Source of the DNA: Lautropia sp.
GTDB taxonomy: Bacteria; Pseudomonadota; Gammaproteobacteria; Burkholderiales; Burkholderiaceae_E
NCBI GenBank assembly: GCA_030527825.1
Contig: JAUNAC010000001.1
Coordinates: forward strand, 1,447,891 to 1,511,890
Direction of reading: 5' to 3'
DNA length: 64,000 nucleotides
In this document: piece by piece, positions 44,534-58,136 of the stretch
How positions within the stretch are numbered: the first letter of the stretch is position 1
Layout: every line of letters starts with the position of its first letter
Notes under the pieces: generated by a model
Told to the model about the DNA's origin: nothing
Databases searched by the model: none
The model's input: the letters and a program-made list of their open reading frames with translations, nothing else
Position numbers and translations under genes: made by a program

Positions 44534-45787
44534 ATGTACAAACATATCAAGGTCCCTGCCCAGGGTCAGAAGATTACCGTCAAGCAGGATTTCTCTCTCG
44601 ACGTGCCCGATAACCCGATCGTGCCGTACATCGAAGGAGATGGAACCGGTTTTGACATCACCCCAGTCATGCTGAAAGTGGTGGATGCCGCCGTGCAGAA
44701 AGCCTATGGCAGCAAGCGCAAGATCCACTGGATGGAGATCTATGCCGGCGAGAAGGCTACCAAAGTCTATGGTCCGGATGTCTGGCTGCCTGACGAGACG
44801 CTGGATGTCTTGCGAGATTACGTCGTTTCTATCAAGGGGCCTTTGACCACGCCAGTCGGGGGCGGAATTCGCTCGCTCAACGTCGCCTTGCGTCAGCAGC
44901 TTGACCTCTATGTCTGCCTGCGTCCCGTGCAGTATTTTGACGGTGTACCATCGCCGGTGCGCGAGCCCCAGAAGACCGACATGGTGATTTTCCGCGAAAA
45001 TTCCGAAGACATCTACGCCGGCATTGAGTATGAGGCAGAGTCGGATCAGGCGAAGAAGCTCATCAACTTCCTTCAAAAGGAACTTGGTGTCAACAAGATC
45101 CGCTTCCCCGAGACCTCCGGCATTGGTATCAAACCAGTCTCGAAGGAAGGTACCGAGCGCCTGGTTCGCAAGGCCATCCAGTATGCCATTGACAACGATA
45201 AGCCTTCTGTCACCCTGGTGCACAAGGGCAATATCATGAAATTCACCGAAGGTGGCTTCCGTGACTGGGGCTACGGGCTGGCGAAGAGGGAATTCGGCGC
45301 CGAACTGGTCGATGGTGGCCCGTGGATGAAGCTGAAGAATCCGAAGTCCGGCAAGGACATCATCGTCAAGGACGTCATCGCTGACGCCTTCCTGCAGCAG
45401 ATCCTGCTCCGGCCTGCCGAGTACTCGGTCATCGCCACATTAAACCTCAACGGTGACTATATATCCGACGCCCTTGCCGCCCAGGTCGGAGGCATTGGCA
45501 TTGCCCCGGGAGCGAACCTGTCGGATTCGGTGGCCATGTTCGAGGCCACCCATGGTACGGCACCCAAGTATGCGGGCAAAGATTATGTCAACCCGGGCTC
45601 CGAAATCCTCTCGGCCGAGATGATGCTACGTCATATGGGCTGGACTGAGGCCGCCGATCTGATCATTGCCTCGATGAAAAAGGCCATCGCCAGCAAGAAG
45701 GTGACCTATGACTTTGCCCGTCTCATGCCGGATGCCGAACAGGTTTCCTGTTCAGGTTTTGGCCAGGTGATGATCGACAACATGTAG
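44534..45787 (+). CDS. icd: Isocitrate dehydrogenase (NADP+)
   Basis: TCA-cycle enzyme of the E. coli Icd type, 417 residues. It has [13 protein letters not shown], the substrate- and phosphorylation-site Ser in [40 protein letters not shown] and [19 protein letters not shown] 44534 gives the standard N-terminus MYKHIKVPA; the frame opens 45 bases earlier. The Ser in the IRS motif suggests control by isocitrate dehydrogenase kinase if one is encoded elsewhere. Confidence 0.98.
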
Positions 45788-46003: not shown

Positions 46004-47266
46004 ATGAAGTTTCTCAAGAAACGTGTGGAGACGAGACTGGACAACCTGGCAGTCCCCGTGTCGTTGACGTTGCCTTCCGGGGAACAGCTTGGTCGCCCGG
46101 ACGCTGCGGTACGCCTATATCTGAACGATAATCGGCTGTTGGCGCCGCTGCTGGCAGGTCAGATGGGAGCATTGGGCGAAGCCGTGGTTGAAGGACGGTT
46201 GCGTATTGAAGGCAGTACGCGCGATGTGATGACTGTGGTTGCAGGTCTGGTGCCTGCTGGTCTGCTGGATCGCCGCCCAGGTTGGGGTCGTCAGCGTCAT
46301 CTACACTGGTTGTCTCGACGCCGTCATACCCAGGCGCGTGACGCAGAACAGATCCAGTTTCATTACGACGTTTCAGATGATTTTTATGCGCTGTGGCTGG
46401 ATCCGCGTCGAGTGTATTCCTGTGCCTATTATCGTGAGCCAGATTTCACGCTGGCTCAGGCGCAGGAAGCCAAGCTTGATCTTATCTGTCGAAAGCTGGC
46501 ATTGCAACCTGGCGAGCGCTTTCTGGATATCGGTGCAGGCTGGGGCGGCTTGTTGTTGTGGGCAGCGGAAAACTACGGGGTGGACGCCACGGGCATTACG
46601 TTGTCGAAGAACCAGTACGCATACGTGCAGCAGCTCATCGCCCAGAAGGGGCTCCAAGATCGGGTGCGTATCTATCTGAAGGATTATCGTGATCTGGATG
46701 GCGGCTTACCATATGACAAGATTGCTTCCATAGGCATGTTCGAGCATGTGGGGCGAGCCAATCTGCCTGGCTATTTCAAGACTTTGTATCGCCTGCTGAA
46801 ACCGGCCGGGCTGCTCATGAACCATGGCATTACGGCAGGGGGCGTGCACAATAGTCAGGTTGGTGCCGGTTTGGGCAGCTTCATCGGCAAATACATATTC
46901 CCTGGTGGCGAATTGGTGCACGTCAGTCAAGTGATGCACGACATGGCTAACAGTGGGCTGGAGGCCGTGGATGTCGAGAATCTGAGGCCACATTATGCCC
47001 GCACGTTGTGGGACTGGTCGGATGCGCTGGAGGCTAGCCAATCTGCTGCTGCGCGTGTATTGGAAGATTCAGCTGGTGCCGAGGCAGGCCAACGCATCCT
47101 GCGGGCTTACCGCTTGTACCTGGCAGGATGTGCACTAGCTTTTGAAAATGGCTGGGTGTCGTTGTATCAGCTGCTAGCAACCCGTCCCAGTGGCCGTCTT
47201 GATGAAGGCATTTTGCCCGGGGCCCAGTCTGTCTATCCTTACAATCGTTCCTACATATATTGTTGA
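46004..47266 (+). CDS. cfa: Cyclopropane-fatty-acyl-phospholipid synthase family
   Basis: SAM-dependent methyltransferase that adds a methylene across unsaturated acyl chains of membrane lipids. Of 420 residues, the N-terminal 110 form the lipid-binding domain. The C-terminal domain has the SAM motif FLDIGAGWGGLLLWAAE, HYDVSDDFYALWLDPRRVYSCAYY and a conserved Cys in RLYLAGCALAFENGW. AGGAG lies eight bases before the ATG. It is transcribed alone; such genes are usually induced on entry to stationary phase, but I see no diagnostic promoter. Confidence 0.93.
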   Translation: MKFLKKRVETRLDNLAVPVSLTLPSGEQLGRPDAAVRLYLNDNRLLAPLLAGQMGALGEAVVEGRLRIEGSTRDVMTVVAGLVPAGLLDRRPGWGRQRHLHWLSRRRHTQARDAEQIQFHYDVSDDFYALWLDPRRVYSCAYYREPDFTLAQAQEAKLDLICRKLALQPGERFLDIGAGWGGLLLWAAENYGVDATGITLSKNQYAYVQQLIAQKGLQDRVRIYLKDYRDLDGGLPYDKIASIGMFEHVGRANLPGYFKTLYRLLKPAGLLMNHGITAGGVHNSQVGAGLGSFIGKYIFPGGELVHVSQVMHDMANSGLEAVDVENLRPHYARTLWDWSDALEASQSAAARVLEDSAGAEAGQRILRAYRLYLAGCALAFENGWVSLYQLLATRPSGRLDEGILPGAQSVYPYNRSYIYC

Positions 47267-47417
47267 GCTGCCAGCATTAAAGGGCCGGAGGATAGGTGAT
47301 GCCAACCTGAATACCCGGCCCACGGCATAGCGGCTGGATCCTGCATTTCTCACGTAATGCGCGCTCACGGCCCTGCGTGCCTCATGCTTCATCTGTGAGG
47401 GATCGGCTGTTTGATGA

Positions 47418-47444
47418 TGGCCAAAATTGGCTTGCCAATGGCCA
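47418..47444. promoter_or_regulatory. Nested inverted repeat upstream of the MmgE/PrpD gene
   Basis: TGGCC (47418-47422) and TTGGC (47427-47431) pair with GCCAA (47434-47438) and GGCCA (47440-47444). It is a 27-base imperfect palindrome with a 2-base centre and no following T-tract, so more like an operator than a terminator. The rest of the 309-base gap upstream (47267-47417) shows nothing I can interpret. Confidence 0.5.
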
Positions 47445-47461
47445 CACTCATATTGTATTTA

Positions 47462-47492
47462 TTGATAATTATTTTGATTTATGTTCTATGAT
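47462..47492 (+). promoter_or_regulatory. Candidate promoter of the MmgE/PrpD-ComA unit
   Basis: TTGATA (47462-47467) and TATGAT (47487-47492), each five of six to consensus, spaced by a longish 19 bases. Transcription would begin near 47499. The Fur-box candidate overlaps this element. Confidence 0.45.
47463..47477 (+). promoter_or_regulatory. Candidate Fur box
   Basis: TGATAATTATTTTGA matches the 7-1-7 Fur consensus TGATAAT-N-ATTATCA at 12 of 14 fixed positions, with a perfect left half. It overlaps the predicted promoter of the downstream two-gene unit, the position expected for iron-dependent repression. Fur itself is encoded about 10 kb away at 57693. Confidence 0.5.
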
Positions 47493-47575
47493 TGCCACTG
47501 ACTTGCGGGTGCTATCCGCTTCACAGGATTCCTGCCTGCAGCTTTATCGGGTGTGTCATAAAAGGAGATCTATCC

Positions 47576-48970
47576 ATGGCGAGTGCAGCCCCTATTCCTT
47601 TTGAGCAGACAGAGGTCTATCAGCTGGCCAAATTTGTGGCGTCGGCCGATCAGAAACACATGTCTTCGGAAGCGCGCGAAGAATTGAAAAAACGCATCCT
47701 GGATAGCTTTGGTGTAGGTATTGGCGCGCTGGATGGTGAGCCCATTCGTTATATCCGTCAGCAGATTGACGATTTTGGCGGCCGCCCATTATCGACTTTG
47801 ATTGGCGGCGGCAAGACGGCGCCTGATCGGGCGGCTTTCTATAACGGCGCACTGGTACGCTATCTGGATTTTATGGACAGCTATCTGGCCAAAGGGGAGA
47901 CCTGCCATCAGAGTGACAATCTTGGCGCAGTGCTGGCTGCTGCGGAATATGCGAATGCCAGTGGTGCTACGCTTCTGAGCGCCATGGCGGTGGCATATCA
48001 GGTTCAGGGGCGACTATGTGATGTAGCGCCGGTACGCGCAAAAGGATTTGATCATACTGTGCAGGGTGCTTATGCCGTGGCTGCCGGGGTGTCGCGTGCC
48101 CTGGGGATGGACGCTGCCCATACAGCAAATGCTATCGCCATCAGTGGCACAGGAAACAACGCCCTGCGCGTGACACGCACGGGCGCGTTGTCACACTGGA
48201 AAGGACTGGCTTATCCGAACACCGCCTTCATTGGCACTCATTCAGCCTTTCTGGCCTACCGCGGCATTACCGGGCCTGCCGAGGTCTTCGAGGGCAACAA
48301 GGGGTTCAAGGAGGCCATTGCAGGAAAATTCAGCATTGACTGGAGCAAGGAGGATCTGGAGAACGTTCGAAAATCCATCATCAAGCGGTATAACGCTGAA
48401 ATTCACTCCCAGTCGAGCATTGAGGCAGCGCTGGATCTGCAGAAAGCCAAGGGCTTCAGGGCCAGCGACATAGAGAAACTGGAAATCGATATTTTTGATG
48501 TGGCTTTCCACATCATTGGCGGTGGGGAAGAAGGCGACAAGACCATCATCCGCACCAAGGAAGAGGCGGATCATTCCCTTCAGTACATGGTGGCAGTGGC
48601 ACTGCTTGATGGCAATGTTCTTCCCGCCCAGTACGAGGCCGACCGTATTGTCAAGGCGGATGTTCAGGATCTGCTCAAGCGGGTTGTCGTGCGGCCACGC
48701 CAGGAATACACCGATCGCTTCCCGCAGGAAGTGGTGACGACGCTGCGCTTCACCCTCAAAAATGGAACCACCCACGAAATCACCAAGACGGATTATGAGG
48801 GGTTCAACACACGGCCCATGAGCTGGGACACAGTGGTTGCCAAGTTCACTGGCCTGGCTACGCCGTTCACCAGTGAGAAAGTTCGCAGGAATCTGATTGA
48901 TGCCGTGCGCCATCTGGAGGACATCCAGGTGCGCGATCTGGTGGCGATCATTGCCGACCTGAAGGCCTGA
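47576..48970 (+). CDS. MmgE/PrpD-family protein (2-methylcitrate dehydratase / aconitate-decarboxylase fold)
   Basis: A 464-residue protein of the MmgE/PrpD superfamily, whose members dehydrate 2-methylcitrate or decarboxylate cis-aconitate without an Fe-S cluster. The N-terminal helical domain has KKRILDSFGVGIGALDGEP, GAFYN-type RAAFYNGALVRYLDFMDSY and HQSDNLGAVLAAAEYANASG. The C-terminal alpha/beta domain begins near residue 270. ATG 47576 is well placed after AAAGGAGATC. No prpB/prpC neighbours exist, so classical propionate catabolism is not indicated. The partner is the downstream ComA-like gene. The substrate is unknown. Confidence 0.85.
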   Translation: MASAAPIPFEQTEVYQLAKFVASADQKHMSSEAREELKKRILDSFGVGIGALDGEPIRYIRQQIDDFGGRPLSTLIGGGKTAPDRAAFYNGALVRYLDFMDSYLAKGETCHQSDNLGAVLAAAEYANASGATLLSAMAVAYQVQGRLCDVAPVRAKGFDHTVQGAYAVAAGVSRALGMDAAHTANAIAISGTGNNALRVTRTGALSHWKGLAYPNTAFIGTHSAFLAYRGITGPAEVFEGNKGFKEAIAGKFSIDWSKEDLENVRKSIIKRYNAEIHSQSSIEAALDLQKAKGFRASDIEKLEIDIFDVAFHIIGGGEEGDKTIIRTKEEADHSLQYMVAVALLDGNVLPAQYEADRIVKADVQDLLKRVVVRPRQEYTDRFPQEVVTTLRFTLKNGTTHEITKTDYEGFNTRPMSWDTVVAKFTGLATPFTSEKVRRNLIDAVRHLEDIQVRDLVAIIADLKA

Positions 48971-49000
48971 TCGAAGACCCAGCAGCGGTTCATGTGTTTT

Positions 49001-49033
49001 GCCTGCCGTGCGGCGCACCGCACGGCGGCAGGC
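49001..49033 (+). other. Stable hairpin between the MmgE/PrpD and ComA-like genes
   Basis: GCCTGCC-GTGCGG-cgca-CCGCAC-ggc-GGCAGGC: 13 paired bases with one 3-base bulge. No T-tract follows, so it is not a normal intrinsic terminator. It could stabilise the upstream mRNA 3' end or separate expression of the two genes, which are 179 bases apart. Confidence 0.6.
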
Positions 49034-49149
49034 ATGCAAGTGCCTGGCCGCCGGCGCAGGCCACGCAGCCGGGATCTATGGCTCCCTGGCTGGTTTAGTG
49101 GCCCTTTTTTGAAGGGGCATGCCGAAGCAATGACATCTGGAGAAATCTG

Positions 49150-49995
49150 ATGAGCAAGCAACAGTCCAAGATCTGGAAAAGCCGTTCCTTCCCCTATGTG
49201 CCGATGAACGAACGTGATCCGAAACCCAGGGACAGATCCATTACCGAAATTCGCGGCCCTTACTACGCCATGGTGACTCCGACCTATGTGAGCGAGTTGC
49301 TGGAAGGGGTGGGCGAACATGTGGATGGCTTCAAGTATGCAGGGGGATCGTTTTCCTTGATGCCTGCCGATTACATCCGGCGGATGAATCGTATTTGCCA
49401 CGACCACGGTGTGTATGTCTCAACCGGAGGATGGATCGAAAATGTGCTGGCTCGCGCCCCCGGCCATATCGACGACTATATCGCCGAGGTGAAGAAGCTT
49501 GATTTTGACATGATCGAGCTATCCACCGGTTTCATCCAGTTGCCTGTTCCCGATCTGCTGCGGCTGATCGAGAAGGTGAAAAAGGCGGGGCTGAAGCCGA
49601 AGCCTGAAATCGGCATTCAGTTCGGCGCGGGCGGCGACACCAGCCAGGCCGAGCTTGAAGCGGAAGGGACGCGTGACCCGCAGATTCTCATTGATACGGC
49701 CAACGAGTGCCTGAATGCGGGCGCCTCCATCATCATGATCGAATCCGAAGGCATCACGGAAAATGCCGATCCGTGGCGCACGGATGTGGCCGCCAAGATC
49801 ATGAAGAATGTGGGCATGGAGAACGTGATGTTCGAGGCGGCCGATCCCCAGGTGTTCAGCTGGTACATCAAGAACTACGGTATTGACGTGAACCTGTTTG
49901 TCGACCACAGCCAGATCGTGCAGCTGGAGTGTCTGCGGCGTGGCATTTGGGGCACGAAGAGCACCTTTGGACGCATCACCACGTATCGTCCGTAA
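49150..49995 (+). CDS. ComA-like (phosphosulfolactate synthase family) protein
   Basis: A 281-residue TIM-barrel protein of the ComA family (PF02679), whose archetype adds sulfite to phosphoenolpyruvate in coenzyme M synthesis. Family-like segments are VDGFKYAGGSFSL, VYVSTGGWIENV, FDMIELSTGFIQLP, PEIGIQFGAGGD, IIMIESEGITEN and VMFEAADPQVFSWYI. The usual E-A-R motif after the sixth strand appears here as E-S-E, so an Arg expected to bind an anionic group may be missing. This makes true phosphosulfolactate synthesis doubtful. No other coenzyme M genes are nearby. Confidence 0.8.
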   Translation: MSKQQSKIWKSRSFPYVPMNERDPKPRDRSITEIRGPYYAMVTPTYVSELLEGVGEHVDGFKYAGGSFSLMPADYIRRMNRICHDHGVYVSTGGWIENVLARAPGHIDDYIAEVKKLDFDMIELSTGFIQLPVPDLLRLIEKVKKAGLKPKPEIGIQFGAGGDTSQAELEAEGTRDPQILIDTANECLNAGASIIMIESEGITENADPWRTDVAAKIMKNVGMENVMFEAADPQVFSWYIKNYGIDVNLFVDHSQIVQLECLRRGIWGTKSTFGRITTYRP

Positions 49996-50000
49996 TATCG

Positions 50001-50038
50001 TGGGCCTGGGACCGATCTGTCTCAGGCCCAGTTCTTTT
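50001..50038 (+). terminator. Terminator after the ComA-like gene
   Basis: TGGGCCTG (50001) pairs with CAGGCCCA (50023), giving an 8-bp stem with a 14-base loop, followed by gttctttt. It overlaps the last codons of the convergent D-lactate dehydrogenase gene. Confidence 0.65.
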
Positions 50039-51719
50039 CCCGGGAAGTGTGGCCAATTCCCGGGTTGAAGCTGTTGGTGGGATCCAGTGAGCGGTAGAAG
50101 CGCTGTAGAGCCGGACGGGCATGATATAGATGACCGACATTGTGTTCCGCTGGATATTGTGCGCCACGGGCATCCAGCAGCGTCAGCATCTGCTGTTCCA
50201 GCGCGTGGCAATCATGTCCCTTTTTCACGATGTAGTCCTGGTGAAAGACGTGGCACATGAAATGTCCGTAGTACAGCTTGTGGCTGATCTGTTCGTCGAG
50301 GTTCTCTGGAAGTTTTTCGAACCAGTCCGGGTCGTTTCGCCGCAGGGCCACATCCAGGGCAACAATGTCTTCCACTTCCTGATCGTGCACCGCCCGATAA
50401 CGTACCGCCGCTGATGCCACAGCGAAACGGTGCAACATGGCTGCCTGGGTTTCCGTCGCGTTGCATTCAAAGAAAGCGCCCTGATCCGGGTCAGAAAAAT
50501 GGCTGTTCAGGTATTGGCGCGCCTCGTCCATGCCAGGGCCGCCCATTTTCAGGATCAGGTGATGTTCATACTGATCCCGGAATGACCGTAGACGAGGAGG
50601 CAGATGCTGGGGGAGCAGACCTGCCAGCCGCTGCAGCGCCTTGTCGGAAAAATGGCGCGGCAGAAAGCGCAATCGGCGAGCTGCCCGGTCGACCCATGTC
50701 TTGGCCTGGAACAAGGCAGGCAGGCGGTGCGTGCCCAGCAGGCGAATCATCCAGACAGTGTCCTTGCCATAGATGGCAGCGATATCGAATGCGTGGCGGT
50801 GGATGTATTCTCCCGAAATGGGCAGTGCCTGAAAGTTTGTCAGCATATGACGCCGCAGGCGGCTCAGAACTGCGGTGTCGTGTGTGCCGATGTAGAAAAC
50901 CGCTGTCTCCTTCTCCAGAGGGAAAGTGTCGAGGCGAACAGCAAATACTCCGAGCTTTCCGGCGCTGCCTGATGCTTCATAGTGTCTGGCGGGATCAGCA
51001 TTGAAGCGGGCCGGACTGTCGGCATCGACCTGGCGAACGTGGTGACAGTAGGCATGATCATGGCCTTTCCGGTTGACGGGCAGTACATCACGCGCTTCGT
51101 AGCGGGCTTGTTGCAGGTTCGTCAGAATTTCCTCGGGTGTGTGCCCCAGATGGATCCCCAGGTGGTTAATCAGCTGCAGCTCGCCATCGGCGGTGAGCTG
51201 GGCATATAGCGCCATTTCGGTATAGGCGGGACCTCGCTGAACCAGGGCACCACCGGAGTTATTGCAGATGCCGCCGATGACGGAGGCACCGATGCAGGAT
51301 GAACCAATGACCGAATGCGGTTCACGTCCGTGTTGTTTCAGCAGTGCTTCCAGCTCATTGAGTGTGGATCCGGGTAGGCACACCACCTGCTCAGCCTCTT
51401 GGATGAGTTGAATGCCATCCATGCGTCTGGTACTGATGATGACCAGATCGCGTGCGTAGTCACTGCCATCCGGCGTTGATCCGCCTGTCAGGCCCGTGTT
51501 GGCCGCCTGACTGATAATGATGACATCTGCGGCCACACAGGCTTTAAGCACTTCCCAGTATTCCAGCAGGGTACCGGGCAGAATGACCGCCAGCGCATTG
51601 CCCTGACCGAAGCGGTAGCCTGTCCGGAAGGGTTCGGTGCGGGCCGGGTCGGTCAGGACGTATCTGAGACCCACGATTGTTTGGAGCTGTGCAATGAGCT
51701 GGGGCTGCGTAGATGACAT
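50022..51719 (-). CDS. dld: Quinone-dependent D-lactate dehydrogenase (Dld type)
   Basis: A 565-residue FAD enzyme that oxidises D-lactate at the inner membrane and feeds electrons to quinones. The N-terminal FAD-binding domain has ISQAANTGLTGGSTPDG and VIGSSCIGASVIGGICNNSGG. The large C-terminal membrane-binding domain (about 300-560) has LRSFRDQYEHHLILKMGG, SHKLYYGHFMCHVFHQDYIV and EHNVGHLYHA, specific to the Dld family. It is convergent with the ComA-like gene. Regulation is not visible. Confidence 0.93.
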   Translation of the reverse strand: MSSTQPQLIAQLQTIVGLRYVLTDPARTEPFRTGYRFGQGNALAVILPGTLLEYWEVLKACVAADVIIISQAANTGLTGGSTPDGSDYARDLVIISTRRMDGIQLIQEAEQVVCLPGSTLNELEALLKQHGREPHSVIGSSCIGASVIGGICNNSGGALVQRGPAYTEMALYAQLTADGELQLINHLGIHLGHTPEEILTNLQQARYEARDVLPVNRKGHDHAYCHHVRQVDADSPARFNADPARHYEASGSAGKLGVFAVRLDTFPLEKETAVFYIGTHDTAVLSRLRRHMLTNFQALPISGEYIHRHAFDIAAIYGKDTVWMIRLLGTHRLPALFQAKTWVDRAARRLRFLPRHFSDKALQRLAGLLPQHLPPRLRSFRDQYEHHLILKMGGPGMDEARQYLNSHFSDPDQGAFFECNATETQAAMLHRFAVASAAVRYRAVHDQEVEDIVALDVALRRNDPDWFEKLPENLDEQISHKLYYGHFMCHVFHQDYIVKKGHDCHALEQQMLTLLDARGAQYPAEHNVGHLYHARPALQRFYRSLDPTNSFNPGIGHTSREKNWA

Positions 51720-52111: not shown

Positions 52112-53719
52112 TCAGGACGGGGGGATGGTGGCAAGGGGAGATGCGCCATGGGGGGGGCGCTTTCGGCTGGGGCCGGGCGGTTTTTTGGATGGGGGGCGTC
52201 GGGTTCGCCAGGCAATGGTGGCCATCAGCACGCCAAAGAGCAGCGTCGTCAGGTCAATCGAAACGAAGGTCCAGTCTCGTTGTGCCAGGCTGCTCAGTAT
52301 GCCCCGGGCGGTTGTCAGGGCATTGATCAACGGTGTGAGCATGATCCCGCAGTATGACAACAGTTCTGTCCAGGCCCGCCGGGTGGGGCGCAGTGTGGCG
52401 TAGCCTGCCGCTGTTGCCCAGACGCTGAAGAAGATGCTGACTTCGCAGTTGCTGCGTTGTACCAGTGCAAGCGGCAGCAGCCGGTTGGCCCAGAGGTAAG
52501 CCGTCATGGCCAGCGGTAGACCGACCAGCACCGCAATATTGAGCTTTTCTACCAGTATGAGCCCGAAGCCGGCTGACTGTCCGGATTTGAGTCGTGTCCA
52601 GCGCTTGATCGTCCAGAGCACCAAACCACTGGCCATCATGCCAGCGCCGCTTAAGCCAAGGAGGAAATAGAGCCACCTCAGCGGGGGCTGAGCATAGTGC
52701 CCCTTATGCAGTGCCAGCAGTACACCATAGGTGCCGGCAGCCGGGGCGGCCTGTTCGTGGGTTTGCAGCAGCTGGCCGTTATTGCCATCAAACAGCATGA
52801 ACTGCGGATGCGCGTTGACATCGCTGTCATCCCTGCGCAGAACCATCACCCGGGTACCCGTGTCGCCGGGATTGTTGACAAGTAGTCGGCCTATCCCCTG
52901 CTGACCCCAGCGCTGTTGAGCTTGCTGCATCATGGGAACAACGGAGGCAAGGGGCATGGGCCGGTGACTGGCGGGTTCGGGGGCGCGAGTGCCGCGAATC
53001 ATCTGCTGGAACTGCTGCTGTGCGGATGGTGTGCGAAATGCGGCTGTAACGCCCCAGGGCATGTACTGAAACATCATGGATACCAGACCGGTATAGGCGA
53101 TGATCAGATGGAATGGCAACCCGAGAACTGACATGCCGTTATGGGCATCCAGCCAGGAGCGTTGACCCTTGCCCCAGCGAAAAGTGAAAAAGTCAGTGAA
53201 GATTTTTTTGTGAATGATGATGCCGCTGAGAATGGCGACCAGCATGAACATGGTGGCAAGGCCAACAATCCAGCGCGCAGTCCGGGGCTGAAGGTGGTAA
53301 AGATTAAAATGAAAGAGATAAAAAAATTCTCCACCCAGCGTATTTCTGACCTGAAGGGGGGCTGCAGTCTGCGGATCCAGCAAGCGCTGGTGAATTTGGC
53401 GCTCACCAGCGAGCCAGTAAATCGAGGCGGTTGGCTGGCGCTGTGTGGGCAGGGAAACTCCCCACTGCAGCGCATGGGGGGCCTGCCGCTGCAGCGTGTC
53501 GAGCAGGTGGCGGGTAGTCTGCGTGGGGTTCGGGTGCGGTGTACTGAGCGGTATTTCGGGCCGCATCCACAGCGAGATTTCGTGCCGGAAACAGCTCATG
53601 CTGCCCATCAGGAAGATCGTGTACAACAGCCAGCCCATGAGGAGTCCGACCCAGGTGTGCAGGCTGGCCATGGCCTGGCGAAATCCGGGGGGACGGGTCG
53701 GCTGGGCGGGCATGGGCAT
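52112..53719 (-). CDS. PepSY-associated TM-helix protein (siderophore-reductase-like)
   Basis: A 535-residue inner-membrane protein of the PepSY_TM family, related to Pseudomonas FoxB-like proteins that reduce or process ferri-siderophores. The first helix is FRQAMASLHTWVGLLMGWLL with a conserved His. Further helices include WIVGLATMFMLVAILSGIII, LPFHLIIAYTGLVSMMF and LYFLLGLSGAGMMASGLVLW. A periplasmic PepSY-like region lies between. Its ATG overlaps the DUF3649 stop (TAATG), showing tight coupling. The frame runs further upstream but within DUF3649. Confidence 0.85.
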   Translation of the reverse strand: MPMPAQPTRPPGFRQAMASLHTWVGLLMGWLLYTIFLMGSMSCFRHEISLWMRPEIPLSTPHPNPTQTTRHLLDTLQRQAPHALQWGVSLPTQRQPTASIYWLAGERQIHQRLLDPQTAAPLQVRNTLGGEFFYLFHFNLYHLQPRTARWIVGLATMFMLVAILSGIIIHKKIFTDFFTFRWGKGQRSWLDAHNGMSVLGLPFHLIIAYTGLVSMMFQYMPWGVTAAFRTPSAQQQFQQMIRGTRAPEPASHRPMPLASVVPMMQQAQQRWGQQGIGRLLVNNPGDTGTRVMVLRRDDSDVNAHPQFMLFDGNNGQLLQTHEQAAPAAGTYGVLLALHKGHYAQPPLRWLYFLLGLSGAGMMASGLVLWTIKRWTRLKSGQSAGFGLILVEKLNIAVLVGLPLAMTAYLWANRLLPLALVQRSNCEVSIFFSVWATAAGYATLRPTRRAWTELLSYCGIMLTPLINALTTARGILSSLAQRDWTFVSIDLTTLLFGVLMATIAWRTRRPPSKKPPGPSRKRPPHGASPLATIPPS

Positions 53720-53997
53720 TACCACCAGAGGGTACTGTCCAGCGCCAGCAGAGCGGCGGACAGCAGTGTCAGACCTGTCCAGGCGCGGATGGCTGACCGA
53801 GCGCCAAACGCCCAGAGGGCGGCGCATGTGTAGACAGCGAAGCTGCCCATGGTTCCCCACAGTACGGCTTCCTGATGGTCAGTCATCAGGACGAGGGGCA
53901 GGATCGATACCAGTGCAGCCAAGACATAGCCGCCTACGATCGCGGCCAGACTACGCAGCAGCAGGGACCACAGCGTGACATTCGGGGATATTGGCAT
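53719..53997 (-). CDS. DUF3649 small membrane protein
   Basis: A 92-residue protein with three membrane segments (LWSLLLRSLAAIVGGYVLAALVSI is the first region). DUF3649 is a family found almost always with PepSY_TM and DUF3325 proteins next to TonB-dependent receptors. Here it is first in the unit, but no receptor gene is present in the window on either side. No Fur-like box is visible upstream (53998-54156). Confidence 0.8.
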   Translation of the reverse strand: MPISPNVTLWSLLLRSLAAIVGGYVLAALVSILPLVLMTDHQEAVLWGTMGSFAVYTCAALWAFGARSAIRAWTGLTLLSAALLALDSTLWW

Positions 53998-57536: not shown

Positions 57537-57692
57537 GATGGGTCAGTGATGATGTACTTTGAGTAAAGCGGTATCACATGGTGAGTCATGGTCGCGCAAA
57601 TGGTTCATAATGCACGAATCAGGGGATGGATGCGTGGGCATGCATTCATTTGCCCGTATGCGATGAACCCAGTTTCTCTCTCAGGAAGGTCA

Positions 57693-58136
57693 ATGAGCAC
57701 GCAGGATCAGGAATTGCGCAGTGTCGGCTTGAAGGCGACACTGCCCAGAATCAAGGTACTTGAAATCATCCGGGGCAGTGATGAACGTCACCTGTCGGCC
57801 GAAGATGTATTTCGCCGCCTGTTGGAGCAAGGTCACGATGTGGGACTGGCGACCGTGTATCGCGTATTGTCCCAGCTGGAGGCCGCAGGCTTATTGAGCC
57901 GCAATGTATTCGACGGTGGGAAGGCGGTTTTCGAGATGAATGAGGGTGATCATCATGATCACCTGATCTGTGTCAGCTGTGGTCGGGTGGATGAGTTCAC
58001 CAGCCCGATTATTGAGAAGGTACAGTACGACGTGGCCAAGGCGCATGGCTATGAACTCTCGGAGCGGCGATTGGCACTTTACGGCGTCTGTTCTGTCTGC
58101 CAGAAAAATGCCGTGATGCCACGAGGCAGGAACTGA
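57693..58136 (+). CDS. fur: Ferric uptake regulator Fur
   Basis: A 147-residue Fe(II)-dependent repressor. The N-terminal winged helix ([34 protein letters not shown]) is followed by the metal-binding dimer domain, with [16 protein letters not shown] and the second Cys pair in CSVCQ. ATG 57693 follows AGGAAGG; the frame extends upstream but without conservation. A possible promoter has -10 CATAAT near 57609 with a poor -35. It is not next to the usual divergent bamE (omlA) gene. The nitroreductase gene starts four bases after its stop. Confidence 0.96.

Follow-up and report, generated by a model that had tools for sequence, protein, structure and literature searches.

What do a dehydratase-family gene and a gene of the ComA family do side by side in a genome of Lautropia sp., behind what looks like a binding site for the iron regulator Fur? 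The two genes lie in a 64,000-nucleotide stretch of assembly GCA_030527825.1 (contig JAUNAC010000001.1, positions 1,447,891 to 1,511,890), which we call the window. We are fairly confident that they form a split, iron-sulfur-free aconitase that converts citrate to isocitrate, a reading that rests on gene context, not on biochemistry. The two genes are:

47576-48970, + strand: MmgE/PrpD-family gene (464 amino acids, PF03972 and PF19305), proposed citrate dehydratase (citrate to cis-aconitate)
49150-49995, + strand: ComA-like TIM-barrel gene (281 amino acids, PF02679), proposed aconitate hydratase (cis-aconitate to isocitrate)

In the first step the MmgE/PrpD protein would remove water from citrate to give cis-aconitate, as E. 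coli PrpD is reported to do, with a high Km for citrate; in the second the ComA-like barrel would add water to cis-aconitate in the opposite orientation, giving isocitrate. The known reaction of ComA is the addition of sulfite across the double bond of phosphoenolpyruvate (PEP). The ComA-like active site is acidic and probably binds a metal, and water would be added to the aconitate double bond much as ComA adds sulfite to PEP. Substrates and products, like the metal and the regulation, we infer from gene content, conservation, linkage, residue differences and a fold prediction.

The two genes form a conserved module

Scanning genome contigs with the window ComA-like protein yielded 67 loci. 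Both genes are on one strand in 57 of these, with a gap of less than 700 bases in 56 of the 57; the MmgE gene comes first at 52 paired loci and the ComA-like gene at five. MmgE identity to the window protein is 54-84% across the paired loci, which by their record titles come from Pseudomonadota, Balneolota, Bacteroidota, Planctomycetota, Chloroflexota, Nitrospirota, Actinomycetota, Armatimonadota and Bacillota. The remaining 10 loci include two with prp genes (L046 and L056) and two that start at a contig edge (L063 and L068). Protein distances in the two families are correlated (r = 0.77 for 51 pairs, 0 of 2000 permutations). Sequences that were short or contained stops or unknown residues were left out of the alignments (MmgE of L014, L015, L024, L038 and L043; ComA-like of L036 and L066).

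The ComA-like gene also matches 34 plasmid records, and all six of the plasmid regions that we examined, from haloarchaea, Salinibacter and methanotrophs, contain an MmgE/PrpD gene; other genes separate it from the ComA-like gene on two Halorussus plasmids. Among the genes between them there is one for a CGCGG-family rSAM-modified RiPP (L118:2361-6819 and L156:1880-6816). On a plasmid of Methylosinus trichosporium OB3b the pair is near succinate dehydrogenase genes, amid transposases (L116:11744-13419).

Among 300 genomes of the window's order, a close copy of the ComA-like gene is found only in the window's own genome; 21 others match at 25-30% identity, and three genomes of the same genus have no match at all to the protein. 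The nearest copies (77-93% identity) are in Lampropedia, a Rhodobacteraceae metagenome-assembled genome (MAG), Rhizobium, Psychrobacter and Pseudochelatococcus. The GC content of the pair (0.556 and 0.559) equals that of its two upstream neighbors (0.558 each), so composition does not point to recent transfer; the patchiness of its distribution does. The original prediction had proposed conservation of the pair as a check, and the search across genomes bears it out; we conclude that the two genes are a conserved mobile module. A larger pathway around the pair was considered and rejected: in an all-against-all clustering of 765 mechanically called open reading frames (ORFs) from the 67 loci and a stretch of the window, no third gene occurs in more than 11 loci.

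The pair lies in a citrate synthase operon in Aerococcus

In Aerococcus, gltA, the ComA-like gene and the MmgE gene follow one another on the same strand; at locus L061 citrate synthase is directly upstream of the pair. Citrate synthase is present in exactly four of 15 Aerococcus genomes, and MmgE in the same four; of the 11 Aerococcus genomes searched for the ComA-like gene, these four again are the ones that have it (G616-G619 were outside that sample). By PF00330, the family of the iron-sulfur (Fe-S) aconitases, none of the 15 genomes has an aconitase: the four pair genomes have zero matches, and the other genomes have only three, all LeuC-size (465-474 amino acids) and near LeuB-size genes.

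Each of the four pair genomes also has an isocitrate dehydrogenase-family gene of the 335-amino-acid type (icd-like). Isocitrate dehydrogenase is the best match of the three icd-like proteins scanned, at 420-422 bits, below the cut-off of 510. A citMHS-type citrate symporter gene precedes the icd-like gene in all four (a partial match in G603), and the one symporter scanned scores 416.1 bits against a cut-off of 259.7. The synthase scores 628.3 bits against citrate synthase subfamily NF010635, above the cut-off of 426, and 254.8 bits against the methylcitrate/citrate synthase II group, below its cut-off of 421.3. Between citrate synthase and isocitrate dehydrogenase these genomes lack a single enzyme, aconitase, and the citrate synthase operon is where the pair is found.

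ComA-like genes lie among methylcitrate-cycle genes in Nitrospirota

Of 395 Nitrospirota genomes, 23 have some ComA-like match and 11 have a near-full-length one at 67% identity or more. Six of the 11 have prp genes beside the ComA-like gene, in the order ComA-prpB-prpD (G655, G1032, G978 and G650), ComA-prpB-prpC-prpD (G753) or prpD-ComA (G1010). The prpB and prpD products of G655, G650, G753 and G1032 and the prpD product of G1010 are above curated cut-offs; the prp genes of G978 are tblastn identifications only. For 2-methylcitrate synthase/citrate synthase II the G753 synthase exceeds the cut-off (492 against 421.3 bits), and for bifunctional methylcitrate synthase it falls just short (542.7 against 550). 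Four bases separate the ComA-like stop from the prpB start in G655, where prpB and prpD overlap. Elsewhere, G647 and G649 have the MmgE pair instead, G843 and G863 have neither MmgE nor prp genes in 12.5 kb, and the G1000 contig ends shortly past the ComA-like gene. In a tree built without L036 (which contains a stop), duplicates and fragments, the ComA-like protein of G1000 groups with the six prp-linked ones in a single clade within the subfamily (support 0.997).

In the methylcitrate cycle PrpC forms methylcitrate, PrpD dehydrates it, aconitase hydrates the product and PrpB cleaves the result. The G753 operon has genes for all of these steps but hydration, plus the ComA-like gene. E. coli PrpD is reported to dehydrate without rehydrating to 2-methylisocitrate, stopping at 2-methyl-cis-aconitate, and to take citrate as a substrate with a Km of 66 mM (PMC9468356); the Fe-S aconitases AcnA and AcnB are reported to rehydrate 2-methyl-cis-aconitate (PMC5690661). 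Hydration is therefore the unfilled step in the Nitrospirota prp loci.

These loci also suggest a different account, in which the pair acts on 2-methylcitrate as the Fe-S-free half of the propionate (methylcitrate) cycle and not in the tricarboxylic acid cycle, the ComA-like protein being a methylaconitate hydratase. The company that the Nitrospirota clade keeps with prp genes is consistent with this, as is the resemblance of the window MmgE protein, which is greatest to 2-methylcitrate dehydratases. We consider it unlikely, however, because no prpB was found in any of the 57 MmgE-ComA loci (in stretches of up to about 12.8 kb, some shorter) and because the Aerococcus synthase passes the cut-off for the citrate synthase subfamily and fails that for methylcitrate/citrate synthase II; prpC was looked for at MmgE-ComA loci only by way of this Aerococcus synthase. 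Citrate and 2-methylcitrate may both be used as substrates.

The MmgE/PrpD protein differs from known 2-methylcitrate dehydratases

The window MmgE/PrpD protein matches PF03972 with 236.9 bits and PF19305 with 146.4 bits. A Pfam scan of the two window proteins at E = 0.001 gave MmgE_PrpD_N/C and ComA only, and PF00330 matches neither. The best relative of solved structure for the MmgE/PrpD protein is a 2-methylcitrate dehydratase (5mux), and the window protein is below the cut-off of all the curated 2-methylcitrate dehydratase models (154 against 950, 143.7 against 575 and 122.4 against 458 bits). With the window protein as query, human cis-aconitate decarboxylase (CAD) scores 88.5 bits and MmgE/PrpD proteins 92.9-96.8 bits, a small margin.

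If this protein interconverted citrate, cis-aconitate and isocitrate by itself, or decarboxylated cis-aconitate, the ComA-like protein would be an isomerase or accessory protein with some other job. The MmgE/PrpD family is mixed enough to accommodate this, since it includes cis-aconitate decarboxylase and iminodisuccinate epimerase, and the NCBIfam model that best matches the Nitrospirota PrpD proteins is named bifunctional 2-methylcitrate dehydratase/aconitate hydratase. That name counts against a separate hydratase, and it means that a hydratase role of PrpD itself is already in print, as a name. On the other side, in six Nitrospirota genomes the ComA-like gene lies with a canonical prpD and has no pair MmgE next to it, E. 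coli PrpD is reported to dehydrate without rehydration to the iso form (PMC9468356), and the window protein matches 2-methylcitrate dehydratases narrowly ahead of decarboxylases. We therefore think it improbable that the MmgE/PrpD protein does the whole reaction.

The ComA-like protein is unlikely to be a phosphosulfolactate synthase

The ComA-like protein matches PF02679, and a ComA-type TIM-barrel fold is predicted for it. It scores only 82.6 bits against the phosphosulfolactate synthase equivalog model TIGR03849, far below the cut-off of 280, and four of its relatives score 89.6-96.8 bits. Position 157 is Gln in 77 of 77 subfamily members and Lys in 15 of 15 distant ComA homologs, among which we counted L097, a distant Lactobacillales homolog without Gln157. 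This Gln aligns with K137 of Methanocaldococcus jannaschii ComA (1qwg), which we take to be catalytic. Residues K62, E97, E123, S125, E153 and E229 are common to the subfamily and the distant homologs; E33, R35, Y38, Y39, H84, D252 and W267 are specific to the subfamily.

We rejected coenzyme M or sulfolactate synthesis as the main role of the pair on account of the TIGR03849 score and the replacement of Lys by Gln. The same two results make it very unlikely that the MmgE/PrpD protein supplies an unsaturated acid such as aconitate or itaconate to which the ComA-like protein adds sulfite, or that the ComA-like protein works on PEP, even though the fold and Pfam family are those of ComA and a Michael acceptor would be a natural substrate for such an enzyme; the prp and gltA operons also offer no obvious sulfonate role, and no sulfonate gene or ComB/ComC-like partner was recognized among the recurring neighbors, which were inspected by eye.

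The original prediction had named both possibilities: that under iron starvation the unit handles citrate-like acids in a step independent of Fe-S clusters, or that it makes a sulfonated or phosphorylated small molecule. The first, together with the idea of a two-enzyme route not yet described, has contextual support from the Aerococcus gltA-comA-mmgE arrangement without aconitase, from the ComA-like genes among prpB, prpC and prpD, and from the four Fur-box matches described below; the second is not supported, given the evidence above.

Fur-like sites and layout of the window locus

The other features of the window locus are:

47463-47477, + strand: Fur-box-like site TGATAATTATTTTGA, 12 of 14 matches to the 7-1-7 consensus
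50001-50030, + strand: terminator-like hairpin of 12 pairs, 3' of the pair
44534-45787, + strand: NADP-isocitrate dehydrogenase gene (icd; 809 bits, cut-off 490), nearby and non-adjacent
46004-47266, same strand as the pair: cyclopropane fatty acid synthase-family gene, between icd and the pair
57588-58136: fur gene (168.3 bits, cut-off 146), 7.6 kb beyond the pair

The window genome is 2.8 Mb with a completeness of 99.39%. The MmgE/PrpD and ComA-like genes are on the same strand with a gap of 179 bases, in which there is a weaker terminator-like site (49088-49103). We took the ATG at 47576, after AAAAGGAG, as the MmgE/PrpD start (the mechanical ORF begins at TTG 47492), which places the Fur-like site 98 bases before it. 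Both genes and the site were thus found as the original prediction had described them. Its plausible promoter overlapping the site was not recovered, as a sigma-70 scan gave 0 sites in 47200-50100, and its statement that no known pathway gene is nearby is contradicted by icd, 1.8 kb upstream of the pair. The NADP-isocitrate dehydrogenase would consume the isocitrate that the pair is proposed to make.

At three mismatches or fewer the window has two Fur-like sites, and two or more occur in 27 of 100 window shuffles; taken alone the site is weak and non-significant. Within the 340 bases around the ORF start it has p of about 0.01 (200 shuffles). The second site, a palindrome (TGATCATCATGATCA, 57947-57961), is inside the fur gene and is probably due to chance. 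To compare loci we took the region before the pair's first gene (in Aerococcus L061, before the ComA-like gene and not gltA). The 7-1-7 pattern has p ≤ 0.01 in only four of 52 upstream regions, with p values uncorrected for the 52 regions and four patterns searched: those of the window, Psychrobacter L005 (14 of 14 matches), Lampropedia L002 (12 of 14) and Veronia L048 (12 of 14, and 16 of 19 to the long Fur consensus). The last three sites each have p = 0.005, the floor of the shuffle test. The four regions belong to the beta- and gammaproteobacteria in the set, a grouping made post hoc. In Veronia 228 bases separate the site from the MmgE frame downstream, and a divergent LysR gene adjoins it, so the site could serve the LysR gene instead.

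Whether relatives share the box, on which the original prediction had staked its iron link, has a divided answer: it is present in the beta- and gammaproteobacteria (L002, L005 and L048), non-significant in the alphaproteobacteria L004, L006 and L007 and marginal in L003 (11 of 14, p = 0.02), and the other phyla among the 52 regions have no Fur pattern at p = 0.01. Because its beta- and gammaproteobacterial relatives have sites upstream of the same pair, the predicted window site is probably real. In the window organism the unit would then probably be Fur-repressed and used when iron is scarce, beside a normal AcnA-size gene.

FNR and NsrR were rejected as general regulators, having scattered matches only (FNR-like, 9 of 10, at p = 0.09 in L012 and p = 0.04 in L013). 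A winged-helix gene (cluster 4) and a second gene (cluster 3) recur in 10 Balneolota loci and are directly upstream of the pair in the six inspected (L011, L016, L017, L018, L026 and L029); in L012, Crp-family and DUF2249 genes are directly upstream. Two of the winged-helix proteins have SufR as their best match (74.8 and 74.6 bits against a cut-off of 178.8). Of the second-gene proteins, one resembles the RIC family of Fe-S repair proteins (54.8 bits against 204.7), and downstream of the pair in L011 there is a copper nitrite reductase-like gene (194.9 bits against 296.3). A Dps-type gene follows the pair in Salinibacter. These neighbors fit a link to iron or Fe-S stress, as sub-cut-off matches or single cases.

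Some other neighbors recur or stand out. LysR-type regulator genes adjoin the pair or are one gene away in L058, L060, L048, L049, L051 and L062 (Enterococcus, Veronia and Bacteroidota), assigned by Pfam in L048 and by clustering or by eye in the rest. A divergent ORF of about 146-162 amino acids precedes the pair in three alphaproteobacteria (L006:3888-4364, L007:3908-4345 and L004:3856-4341); those of L006 and L007 are in one cluster, that of L004 is similar by eye, and the L006 protein has no Pfam match. A DUF488-type gene is present in 11 pair loci (L011, L012, L013, L015, L021, L023, L026, L027, L029, L035 and L067; Pfam-checked in L011 only) and on the Methylosinus plasmid at 14009-14377, about 5 kb from the pair. 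After the Psychrobacter pair (L005:7280-11433) are what appear by eye to be an ABC transporter and two TenA-like thiamine precursor salvage genes. PepSY-TM type proteins are often linked to iron uptake; the window has a gene for one at 52112-53860 on the opposite strand, 2 kb past the pair, with no adjoining receptor gene recognized.

An aconitase-size gene accompanies the ComA-like gene in most genomes

Several observations weigh against a split aconitase. PF00330 matches are present in 61 of the 65 genomes with a ComA-like gene, and by our count 58 of the 65 have an open frame of at least 640 amino acids with PF00330. The window genome has an AcnA-size gene (901 amino acids). The seven without an aconitase-size gene are Aerococcus G318 and six MAGs (G620, G621, G629, G637, G643 and G648), and the six may be incomplete. 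We therefore rejected aconitase loss as a general rule in pair genomes; it is convincing in Aerococcus alone. The four Aerococcus genomes are 97-100% alike in these genes and so represent one evolutionary event, and G318 is itself a MAG. Moreover, Aerococcus G616 has citMHS-icd, and G397 and G509 have icd-like genes (63-64%), all three without citrate synthase, MmgE or aconitase, so an icd-like gene in Aerococcus does not require the pair. Two of the Nitrospirota genomes, G655 and G650, carry aconitase-family genes (649-668 amino acids) elsewhere, so the ComA-like protein may be a second enzyme for the hydration step. To these points are added the uncorrected p values of the Fur test and the scores of the SufR, RIC and nitrite reductase matches, all below cut-off.

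Since most genomes with a ComA-like gene have an aconitase-size gene, the pair would usually be a conditional back-up. With this qualification we lean towards a wider view of the split aconitase: a mobile Fe-S-free enzyme common to bacteria and haloarchaea and made of two proteins unrelated to aconitase, in which the ComA barrel would represent a new class of aconitate hydratases. It would replace the normal enzyme when iron is short or Fe-S clusters are damaged, serve some Aerococcus as their sole aconitase, and act, after recruitment, as methylaconitate hydratase in the Nitrospirota methylcitrate cycle.

Comparison with known systems

Among central enzymes, aconitase is the textbook case of one put out of action by iron shortage or by destruction of its cluster by nitric oxide or superoxide. 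A widespread iron-free replacement, if confirmed, would explain how some cells still make 2-oxoglutarate when aconitase fails, and would be a new way of sustaining central metabolism under iron scarcity or Fe-S cluster damage. It would also give a function to genes annotated 'phosphosulfolactate synthase' in many phyla, and offer engineers a cluster-free citrate-to-isocitrate step. We found no description of an MmgE/ComA-like pair or of an iron-free aconitase in the literature searched, which comprised titles and abstract openings, with preprints and most subscription papers outside its scope.

The Fe-S aconitases AcnA and AcnB carry out the same overall reaction as proposed here, via cis-aconitate, and supply isocitrate dehydrogenase. 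The pair differs from them in having no PF00330 domain and in splitting the reaction into halves that would be carried out by separate, unrelated proteins. AcnD-PrpF of the methylcitrate cycle is likewise a two-gene supply of part of this chemistry; unlike the proposed pair, AcnD is an aconitase, with an Fe/S center that was reactivated in the study cited, and PrpF acts as an isomerase and not as a hydratase (PMC5690661).

Each half of the pair also has a known counterpart. PrpD/MmgE proteins (5mux and 1szq) have the same two Pfam domains as the window protein and share its LDF/LDY-D-LA-E-H-SDNLG and AE-H-Q stretches, whereas the window protein reaches only 122-154 bits against 2-methylcitrate dehydratase cut-offs of 458-950 and has a ComA-like gene as its partner. 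The ComA fold and PF02679 are common to phosphosulfolactate synthase (1qwg and 1u83; TIGR03849) and the window ComA-like protein; ComA has Lys at position 157, whereas the window subfamily has Gln throughout. In physiological terms there is a parallel with the iron-sparing isozymes, FumC for FumA/B and SodA for SodB, in which an iron-free enzyme replaces an iron enzyme, as we propose for the pair.

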